This document shows positions 42,928 to 46,255 of a stretch of DNA of 64,000 bases, piece by piece (the first letter of the stretch is position 1; each line of letters starts with the position of its first letter). Origin of the DNA: Brumimicrobium aurantiacum. Lineage in GTDB: Bacteria > Bacteroidota > Bacteroidia > Flavobacteriales_D > Crocinitomicaceae. Under the pieces are notes generated by a model that saw only the letters and a program-made list of their open reading frames with translations, did no database searches and was not told the DNA's origin. Position numbers and translations under genes: made by a program. The stretch lies in assembly GCF_003402975.1 (NCBI RefSeq), contig NZ_QURB01000003.1:186001-250000 (forward strand), in the 5' to 3' direction.

Positions 42928-43278
42928 TTAGAATCTTCTTTTCTCTTTAATTCTTGCAGCTTTTCCAGTTCTTTCACGGAAGTAGAAAATACGCGCTCTA
43001 CGTACAGCACCATTTTTAAGAACTTTAATTTCTTCAATGAATGGTGATGTAACAGGGAAGATACGCTCTACACCGATTCCACCTGACATTTTACGAATAG
43101 TGAAAGTCTCTGTAGTACCAGATCCACGACGTTGTAAAACAACACCAGTAAACTGCTGAATACGTTCTTTTTCACCTTCCTTAATTTTATATGATACAGC
43201 AATTGTGTCTCCTGCTCCGAAAGCTGGTGTTTCTTGTGCTGTTGAAAATTCGTTTTGAACTTCTTTTATTAAATCCAT
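42928..43278 (-). CDS. rplS: 50S ribosomal protein L19
   Basis: A 116-residue L19, at the subunit interface of the large subunit. Signatures are FGAGDTIAVSYKI (near residue 20), KERIQQFTGVVLQRRGSG and the block GGIGVERIFPVTSPFIEEI, ending in RRARIFYFRERTGKAARIKE. It stands alone behind a long leader with a strong promoter. Confidence 0.97.
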   Translation of the reverse strand: MDLIKEVQNEFSTAQETPAFGAGDTIAVSYKIKEGEKERIQQFTGVVLQRRGSGTTETFTIRKMSGGIGVERIFPVTSPFIEEIKVLKNGAVRRARIFYFRERTGKAARIKEKRRF

Positions 43279-43451: not shown

Positions 43452-44078
43452 CTAAAAATCAATGTCTAGCTTAAATTTTTGTCGAAGTGTTTTTAAATGA
43501 GGATTTCGCTCGGCCATATCGTTAAATTTATCTTTACTAGAGTATAATTTTCCTCCTTGAACAGATTCTTCAAATACTTCTAGTTTGATTGACCAATTGT
43601 TGAGTTCTTTTCTAAGGTAACCAACAAGCGTTGTCTCATTGTTTTTGATAAAACCAAGCTGAACATCGTTGTCAACACGGTGTCGAACAAGATAGTTTTT
43701 ACCGATTTCAGGGTCATTTCCTACCATTGCAGTATACAATGTTCCCATTCCTTCTTCTTTAGCTTTAAACGCAAATTTTCTCCATGTCATTCTTAAATCA
43801 TCAATGGAGAACGCATCTGTTGGACGATTGTCATTAACTTCTTTTTTGACTTCCTTCTTCTTTTGTTTGGCTTGGTTCATCATGTCGTTGATGCCCAAAA
43901 AAGAATTGTTAAGCCTCTTGGTTGGAGAACTTAGTTTCTTCGCTTCCTTGTTTAAAGTTATAGGAGTCCTTTTTACAGGTTTTGCTGATTGTGCAGGACT
44001 ATTGGCTTTATTCTTTTTTGAAGCCTTTTTTTCATTTTGCCCTTTAAAAGGAATAATCTTAACAGGGTCAGTTAAGGC
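43452..44078 (-). CDS. dnaX: DnaX C-terminal extension (tau part), read in the -1 frame
   Basis: This frame is open without a stop from the slippery run at 44079-44088 to the TGA-type end at 43452, 208 residues. No ATG opens it near the 5' side, so it is not an independent gene: it begins with ALTDPVKIIPFKGQ, a K-rich linker of about 75 residues, then a folded part (SIDDLRMTWRKFAFKAKEEG ... LKTLRQKFKLDIDF) that I recall as the usual C-terminus of DnaX in flavobacteria. After a -1 shift the full product has 578 residues. If no slippage happens, this part would be lost. Confidence 0.75.
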   Translation of the reverse strand, partial: ALTDPVKIIPFKGQNEKKASKKNKANSPAQSAKPVKRTPITLNKEAKKLSSPTKRLNNSFLGINDMMNQAKQKKKEVKKEVNDNRPTDAFSIDDLRMTWRKFAFKAKEEGMGTLYTAMVGNDPEIGKNYLVRHRVDNDVQLGFIKNNETTLVGYLRKELNNWSIKLEVFEESVQGGKLYSSKDKFNDMAERNPHLKTLRQKFKLDIDF

Positions 44079-45187
44079 TTTTTTTTTTCCTGCTCACTTT
44101 TAATGGAACACAATTGCATTAGTGTTAACTCAACCAGAAGTCGTTGGTTTTTGGCAGATTTATAAGTTGTGTCTGCGTTGCTAATTACTCCTAAGGCCCT
44201 CATAATGTGTTTCGCATCAATGGTCCCTGCTTGCTCTTTGTATTTTTCCTTGATAGAATCACCAACTTCTAATAAATTTAGTGTTTTAGGATTCTTACCA
44301 ACCAAAAGATTTCTATAATGCTCTGATAGACCAACAATGAACTGGTGACCATCAAAACCATGGTTTACAATCTCGTGATATAATAATAAACTATTGGTGA
44401 TGTCTTCTTGTAATGCGTAGTCTACAAGTCTAAAGTAGTAATCGTAATCAAGAACATTTAAATTTTCAATTACTGATTGGTAAGTTAAAGTTTTTCCAGT
44501 GAAACTTACAATTTGATCAAAAATAGATAGTGCATCACGTAAGGCTCCATCTGCTTTTTGAGCGATTAGGTGTAAACCTTCACTTTCCGCATCAATTCCT
44601 TCGTTTACAGAGATCTTTTGAAGATGATCTGCAATATCAGAAATTTGAATTCTATTAAAATCAAAAATTTGACAACGAGATAAAATTGTGGGTATAATTT
44701 TATGTTTTTCAGTTGTTGCAAGAATGAAAATCGCATGTTTTGGAGGCTCTTCTAAAGTCTTTAAGAAAGCGTTGAAGGCAGCCGTAGATAACATGTGCAC
44801 CTCATCAATGATGTATACTTTGTAGTCACCAAGTTGAGGAGCAACCCTTACTTGATCAATTAATGCTCTAATGTCGTCTACACTATTGTTAGAAGCGGCA
44901 TCCAGTTCATATACATTTAAAGATTGACCTTCATCAAAGGATTTACAAGAATCACATTCTCCACAAGCTTCTAATTTGTCAGTTCTGTTCGAACAATTGA
45001 TTGTTTTTGCTAAAATTCTAGCTGTAGATGTTTTACCAACACCACGTGATCCACAAAATAAAAACGCTTGCGCCAACTGATCGTTTTTGATTGCATTTTT
45101 TAAAGTTGTAGAAATATTGCTTTGGCCCACCAACGTATCGAAGGTTTGGGGTCTGTATTTTCTTGCTGAAACAATATAATCGCTCAT
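44072..45187 (-). CDS. dnaX: DNA polymerase III clamp-loader subunit, zero-frame (gamma-like) product
   Basis: A 371-residue AAA+ ATPase. Walker A is GSRGVGKTST near residue 47, the zinc module has CSNRTDKLEACGECDSC near 69-83, Walker B is YIIDEVHML near 122, sensor 1 is ILATTEKHK near 153, and sensor 2 is ADGALRDALSIFDQ near 215. Domain III follows (residues 240-360). The zero frame stops right after a run of ten A residues (E-K-K-K-P-stop). The lengths, 371 zero-frame and 578 shifted, parallel gamma and tau of E. coli (431 and 643). It loads the sliding clamp. Confidence 0.93.
   Translation of the reverse strand: MSDYIVSARKYRPQTFDTLVGQSNISTTLKNAIKNDQLAQAFLFCGSRGVGKTSTARILAKTINCSNRTDKLEACGECDSCKSFDEGQSLNVYELDAASNNSVDDIRALIDQVRVAPQLGDYKVYIIDEVHMLSTAAFNAFLKTLEEPPKHAIFILATTEKHKIIPTILSRCQIFDFNRIQISDIADHLQKISVNEGIDAESEGLHLIAQKADGALRDALSIFDQIVSFTGKTLTYQSVIENLNVLDYDYYFRLVDYALQEDITNSLLLYHEIVNHGFDGHQFIVGLSEHYRNLLVGKNPKTLNLLEVGDSIKEKYKEQAGTIDAKHIMRALGVISNADTTYKSAKNQRLLVELTLMQLCSIKSEQEKKKP
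44079..44088 (-). other. Slippery A10 run, candidate programmed frameshift or transcriptional slippage site in dnaX
   Basis: Ten A residues on the minus strand (read G-AA AAA AAA AA-G in frame zero). Shifting by -1 avoids the TAA at 44074-44072 and opens the tau frame. Two bases downstream a 6-bp stem CTTAAC / GTTAAG with a 7-base loop contains that stop codon. Confidence 0.6.
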
Positions 45188-45385: not shown

Positions 45386-46255
45386 TTATCCTAGGTATGA
45401 TTTTAGCATCTTGCTTCTTGAAGTATGTTTTAAACGACGAACAGCTTTTTCTTTGATTTGACGAACGCGTTCTCTTGTTAAGTCAAAACGAAAACCGATT
45501 TCATCTAAACTCATTTGTCTATGTCCGTCCAATCCAAAGTATAACTTTAATACGTCGGCCTCTCTTAATGTTAAAGTGCTCAATGAGCGGTTAATTTCTT
45601 TTTGTAATGATTGATGTAGAAGGTCTTGTTCTGGACCTTTCAAACTGTCATTTTCTAATAGGTCATACATGTTAGAGCTTGATTCGTCTCCCTCTTTTAA
45701 AGGAGCGTCCATTGATACATGTCTACCGTTGGATTTTAAAGCGTGCTTAATGTCTTTTAAAGGCATTTCCATGTGGTGAGCCAATTCTTGAGCTGAAGGA
45801 GGACGTTCTAATTTTTGTTCTAAATCGGAGTAAGCACGATTTACTTTTCCAATCGAACCAATTTTGTTTAAAGGGAGTCTTACAATTCTTGCTTGTTCAG
45901 CTAATGCTTGAAGGATAGATTGACGAATCCACCAAACTGCATAGGAAATAAATTTAAATCCTCGAGTTTCATCAAATCTTTTGGCGGCCTTAATTAATCC
46001 AACATTTCCTTCGTTTATTAAGTCTGGAAGTGTCAATCCTTGATTTTGATATTGTTTAGCTACAGAAACAACAAAACGTAAATTAGCACGCGTTAATCTG
46101 TCTAAAGCGCGCTGATCTCCGGCTTTAATGCGTTGGGCCAATTCAACCTCTTCTTGTGCTGTAATTAGTTCAAGTCGACCAATGTCAACTAGGTATTTGT
46201 CTAATGAAGCGGTTTCTCTATTGGTAACCTGTTTGCTAATCTTTAATTGTCTCAT
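45386..46255 (-). CDS. rpoD: Primary RNA polymerase sigma factor (RpoD/SigA, short Bacteroidota form)
   Basis: A 289-residue group 1 sigma factor without region 1.1. Region 1.2 starts at about residue 17 ([20 protein letters not shown]), region 2 has the core-binding and melting segments [20 protein letters not shown] and [14 protein letters not shown], region 3 lies near 135-205, and region 4 ends with the helix-turn-helix [20 protein letters not shown]. This factor reads the TTG / TAnnTTTG promoters seen across the window. It is monocistronic. Confidence 0.96.

Follow-up and report, generated by a model that had tools for sequence, protein, structure and literature searches.

The dnaX gene of Brumimicrobium aurantiacum raises the question of whether a reading frame that stops just behind a run of adenines is a complete gene, a damaged one, or the first part of a gene with two products. 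The gene was examined in a stretch of 64,000 nucleotides, referred to here as the window, where it lies on the minus strand. Frame zero (44072..45187) consists of 371 codons followed by the stop TAA (44072-44074), and its translation, a gamma-type product, ends ...SEQEKKKP*. Ten consecutive A in the sense strand of the gene, seen as ten T on the plus strand, form the run at 44079..44088. In the -1 frame a tau-specific extension of 208 codons and a stop is found at 43452..44078 on the same strand; on reading the sequence, this frame gives KKKALTDPVKIIPF...LDIDF, with KKKALTDPVKIIPFKGQ... as its continuation, and is open down to the stop at 43452. The joined product has 578 residues (370 + 208). 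The sizes given in the original prediction were thus reproduced, that of the frame-zero protein of 371 residues by sequence reading and ORF translation, and those of the continuation and of the joined protein by sequence reading. Stops are located 2 and 3 codons past the run in the two non-tau frames, the third frame being closed right after the run by a TGA (44068..44070, minus strand, read from the sequence). Because of this TGA, only eight or eleven A restore the frame. The earlier statement that nine or eleven A would restore it therefore holds for eleven but not for nine, which leads into the third frame.

The N-terminal part of the protein matched PF13177, PF22608 and PF12169 in Pfam (AAA+ clamp-loader N-part) and scored above the cut-off for TIGR02397 and NF011531 (PRK14971, gamma/tau) in NCBIfam. 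Within the 614 positions of NF011531, the N-part covers 1-370 and the extension covers 424-614 (E 2.8e-21); the extension is the usual end of DnaX, in agreement with the original prediction. No Pfam family was matched by the extension in the Pfam search. When the extension was modelled with AlphaFold2 on the basis of 57 sequences, the mean pLDDT was 83.4 and the pTM 0.53, with pLDDT values mostly above 90 in about the last 120 residues, where a folded C-terminal domain is predicted (43461..43814, minus strand). A fold search of this domain against the PDB gave no match at E<=0.001; the top matches, all weak, were a SirA/DnaA domain I entry (E 0.024) and DciA. Domain V of tau may have a related fold. 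When the window was compared with ten relatives, pN/pS was 0.18-0.52 for the extension in the tau frame and 0.05-0.14 for the N-part, and the extension read in the two other frames gave 0.84-1.04 against three relatives, all these values being rough since synonymous sites are near saturation. As judged from these substitution patterns, the extension is coding and under selection in its own (-1) frame. The neighbours of dnaX, both on the same minus strand and named by reading, are a sigma-70-like gene (45386-46255) and an L19-like gene (42928-43278).

Run length and frame were compared in close relatives, as the original prediction had proposed. In the genus, dnaX is split at the run in 10/10 genomes: nine have A10 with tau in the -1 frame and one (G004) has A9 with tau in the +1 frame. 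The frame-restoring lengths of eight or eleven A were seen in none of the ten. In the family, a dnaX match at E<=1e-60 was obtained in 226 of 240 genomes. Among the matches listed, the open frame had about 371-448 codons, the exceptions being G087 and G207 (592-595); a second listing contained one further long frame (G122, 587 codons) along with some gene fragments. Three single-contig assemblies of the family (G047, G049, G060) have open frames of 379-392 codons. Base-by-base inspection of 109 family loci revealed a run of A9 or longer in 92, of which 78 are A10. Tau is in the -1 frame in 88 of these run carriers, in the +1 frame in one and in frame in three (A11, A11 and A14), so that 89/92 are out of frame; the lengths seen in the family are A9, A10, A11, A12 and A14. 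The other 17 loci comprise a run-less clade of 16, described below, and one gene broken elsewhere (L252, from G064), with a TAA inside the match far upstream of the run. A further family member, G132, has TAG and TAA stops in dnaX, also far upstream of the run.

The comparison was extended to 332 dnaX loci of the phylum. These are the best matches of each search together with hand-picked stretches and do not constitute a random draw; 80 of them are named loci titled Bacteroidota or its members, and the rest were placed in the same phylum. At each locus the longest series of A lying between codons 335 and 480 ahead of the frame-zero stop counted as the run. L294 was excluded as a short duplicate, L393, L431 and L432 stand outside all counts, and L065 and L182 were kept although their tau frame is open for fewer than 150 codons. 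A run of A9-A14, mostly exactly A10, is present in 269 loci, mostly 350-400 codons into dnaX. Counting repeated contexts once reduced these to 260 distinct sites: A10 in 205, A9 in 30, A11 in 21, A12 in two, A13 in one and A14 in one. At these sites tau is in frame in 103, in +1 in 11 and in -1 in 146. The run is retained at 42 sites with a local GC content of at least 0.5, up to 0.64. Just five other runs of A>=9 occur in the 457,241 nt of dnaX coding sequence around the 260 sites, and the presence of the run at this place is more than chance.

A FastTree tree was built from the N-terminal sequences of 330 of the 332 loci, two being too short. At least 36 frame changes are needed among its 268 run carriers, compared with 81-100 in 100 shuffles; in one family (f15) seven are needed among 30 loci. 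Outside the split run-less clade, 46 of the 330 sequences are without the run, which indicates that the device is dispensable. Several families belonging to other classes lack the run, as do 17 of the 80 named loci, some of these 17 being truncated at a contig end. An even draw was also made from phylum genomes at least 95% complete. Of its 156 matching genomes 115 were examined, the remaining 41 being left out as their family was already represented or as they were not among the matches listed. The run is present in 86/115, and in 38/40 from the class of the window, with tau in frame in 21, in -1 in 16 and in +1 in one.

The conservation of the run together with the freedom of the frame across relatives fits slippage of RNA polymerase giving both gamma and tau. 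From this sequence comparison, the expression of dnaX probably relies on programmed transcriptional slippage at A10. The polymerase would slip on the ten A and release transcripts with a spread of A counts. Those with one A more or two fewer (plus multiples of three) would be translated into tau of about 578 residues, and the remaining ones would reach a stop 2-3 codons past the run and yield gamma of about 371 residues. If transcripts of all lengths are made, those not encoding tau should end as gamma, and early stops in both wrong frames are expected for this reason. Both off-frame stops are reached within six codons of the run in 226/260 sites (median 5 for the farther one), that is in 84/103 with tau in frame, 134/146 with tau in -1 and 8/11 with tau in +1; positions used as controls in these genes have median stop distances of 17 and 19 (221 distinct sites). 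The production of gamma and tau by slippage, as proposed in the original prediction, is accordingly the best fit to the comparative data. Both proteins are presumed to be made and used in the clamp loader, and it appears to be the polymerase, rather than mainly the ribosome, that slips. The written frame is rather stable in the family (88/92 in -1), so that the three frames may not be made fully equivalent by slippage.

Tau could also be made by -1 programmed ribosomal frameshifting at A_AAA_AAG; gamma and tau would then have swapped roles with respect to E. coli, and the run would merely contain the heptamer. The last six A of the run and the next G form this heptamer in frame zero (GAA AAA AAA AAG), and the sole tRNA-Lys found is that with UUU, in two genes, among the 30 tRNA places scanned out of 34 in the genome. 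The window resembles E. coli dnaX in the heptamer, in this tRNA and in the -1 direction, and tau is indeed in -1 at 146 of the 157 out-of-frame sites; a Chlorobium candidate for such shifting is mentioned in the available part of a 2016 review (PMC5009743). In E. coli, however, frame zero encodes tau and the shift gives gamma; further differences here are the ten-A run, a stem that is weakly conserved, no SD-like motif seen upstream, and the +1 relatives. The 6-bp stem (44058..44076, minus strand) noted behind the run in the original prediction is present in the window, but it is complete in only 3/10 genus species, and the evidence for or against it as a putative stimulator is weak. Its cells pair across the genus in 83.3%, a level reached by 2/500 shuffles, with one pair changed on both sides, and this partial pairing speaks for the ribosome. 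Against this, the fold of the 60 nt that begin with the run is no more stable than that of shuffled sequences (z -0.45 in the window, +0.17 to -1.32 in the ten species). By eye, an AGCAGG touches the run in the window; no SD-like stimulator was seen there about 10 nt upstream, and no AGGAG motif is common to the ten genus genomes. The heptamer is in frame at 103/260 sites and, among the 88 family sites whose tau is in -1, at 42; A10 is retained where tau is already in frame, and 11 sites, including that of the genus member with A9, need +1. A -1 ribosomal shift does not reach tau in +1, as in G004, and cannot serve all frames, which counts against it as the general device; as the explanation of the locus it is considered unlikely. 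A ribosomal share in the species of the window is possible.

The remaining explanations have far smaller chances. Phase variation in DNA, where run-length mutants would switch cells between gamma-only and tau-making states, could draw on the five run lengths found in the family. Runs of about ten A mutate readily. Switching at the DNA level would nevertheless scatter the frames, and the same frame is kept in 88/92 family run carriers; in several longer runs it is a substitution next to the run, rather than a change of length, that holds it, and species without tau would be expected to be ill. This explanation is therefore regarded as very improbable. Equally improbable is the use of gamma alone with the extension as a decaying remnant. 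Frame zero by itself gives a complete gamma-like protein, and yet the extension is open in all ten genus genomes, under selection in its own frame, and in frame with gamma at 103/260 phylum sites. Finally, a sequencing or assembly error in the run was the main alternative in the original prediction, and homopolymer runs are error-prone on some platforms. The identical break in 10/10 genus genomes and in most of the family, single-contig assemblies (G047, G049, G060) included, excludes such an error for practical purposes, and it was rejected. Transcriptional slippage at the run thus remains the preferred explanation.

How does this locus compare with known systems? Antonov et al. in 2013 (PMC3711429) described a novel two-ORF form of dnaX that depends on recoding to yield tau, in 17 genes from 12 genera, nine of the 17 having ten A, and proposed transcriptional realignment, according to the available part of the article. 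The same type reappears in the 2016 review (PMC5009743), in the accessible sections of which the Chlorobium candidate is credited with E. coli-like stimulators and a single nucleotide is stated to be able to reverse the roles of gamma and tau. As far as these sections go, the genes of Antonov et al. share with the present one the division of a conserved protein between two ORFs, the -1 direction in the DNA and poly-A at the junction. They differ in that here a whole family is concerned and the same run is in frame in many other lineages. Since a two-ORF, ten-A dnaX had already been described, the gene in the window is of a known kind. In Thermus thermophilus, slippage at A9 makes gamma and tau from one dnaX gene (a 2005 paper on slippage, PMC1088944, and PMC5009743; available portions of both). 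A sense-strand A run with nearby stops in both other frames is common to the two systems. In Thermus, going by the same portions, frame zero is that of tau, whereas in the window it is that of gamma, tau being in frame zero at 103/260 sites of relatives. No report of the phylum-wide run or of the frame flips was found in the open-licence literature, and the wider phylum pattern may be new.

In the family, 16 loci from five genera (g6, g8, g11, g12, g18) have no run of A>=9, and dnaX is still split, with tau in -1 (L292, L293, L295-L299, L301-L303, L305-L308, L327, L328). Fourteen of them and one run carrier (L300, A10) group with a support of 99 beside the rest of the family under a midpoint root. 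The frame-zero stop lies inside ATCNTA(A/G) in 13/16, with ATC in the tau frame; the share of ATC among the other Ile codons of these loci is 0.19, and a frame-zero serine also constrains these bases. A usual start codon touches the stop in three loci (ATGA in L298, GTGA in L327 and TAATG in L303). In L295, L297 and L305, AAGGAGG is found four bases ahead of ATC, which there completes an in-frame A_AAA_AAG, and ribosomal shifting is therefore possible for these three. In five others (L292, L296, L299, L306, L328), by reading, a stop interrupts the tau frame past the last A_AAA, or there is no A_AAA, and slipping at A_AAA therefore cannot reach tau. The best guess for this clade is that the C-part of tau arises by translation restart, with AUC perhaps as the start.

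A different arrangement was seen in three loci of uncultured Bacteroidales or Bacteroidetes (L087, L129, L132). In these, 366-367 codons of frame zero are closed by a TAG, behind which the same frame continues with the C-part, and there is no A run. All three carry ATAGATTGC(A/T)AGG, in which the TAG and then ATTGC(A/T)AGG stand between the gamma and tau parts at about codon 367. Either readthrough or restart could account for the tau part here. A read-through query against 396 genomes of the class gave no further in-frame TAG case among the matches listed; G742, G733 and G816, which have a stop inside the match, were considered and rejected, all being ordinary out-of-frame A9/A10 genes. In L093 the gamma part ends at about codon 383 and the C-part is in the +1 frame, with no A run.

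For the Bacteroidota and related classes, these observations together with those on the run suggest, with the chances for and against about evenly balanced, that dnaX is as a rule frame-agnostic. An A9-A11 run would have been inherited, slippage on it would give gamma and tau in any written frame, and dozens of flips of the frame would have occurred; loss of the run would have been made good by other devices in at least two lineages, namely restart in the sister clade, perhaps at AUC, and the TAG arrangement in Bacteroidales. There is considerable controversy, as stated in the available text of the 2016 review (PMC5009743), over whether the cell needs gamma or makes it only incidentally. That the ten-A run has survived dozens of switches of frame, GC-rich genomes included, is comparative evidence for selection on both products. 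Closely related species whose written frames are opposite form natural pairs for studying the effect of the frame on the gamma:tau ratio. It is likely that dnaX of the whole family is cut short or called broken in databases.

Other long runs in the genome of the window were also inspected, and the 16 further places with ten or more A or T were read with their surroundings. On reading these 16 places, no second protein in two frames was noticed. Two of the runs are A10 on the sense strand well inside apparent genes, one of them glycosyltransferase-like (L315, 1343-1352) and the other histidine-kinase-like (L320, 1383-1392), both named by reading. In L325 the run is at the border of two unrelated genes, and in L313 it is at a gene end. 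The A12 at about position 1435 of L316 adjoins a series of N in sequence of low complexity, and is therefore probably associated with an assembly gap.
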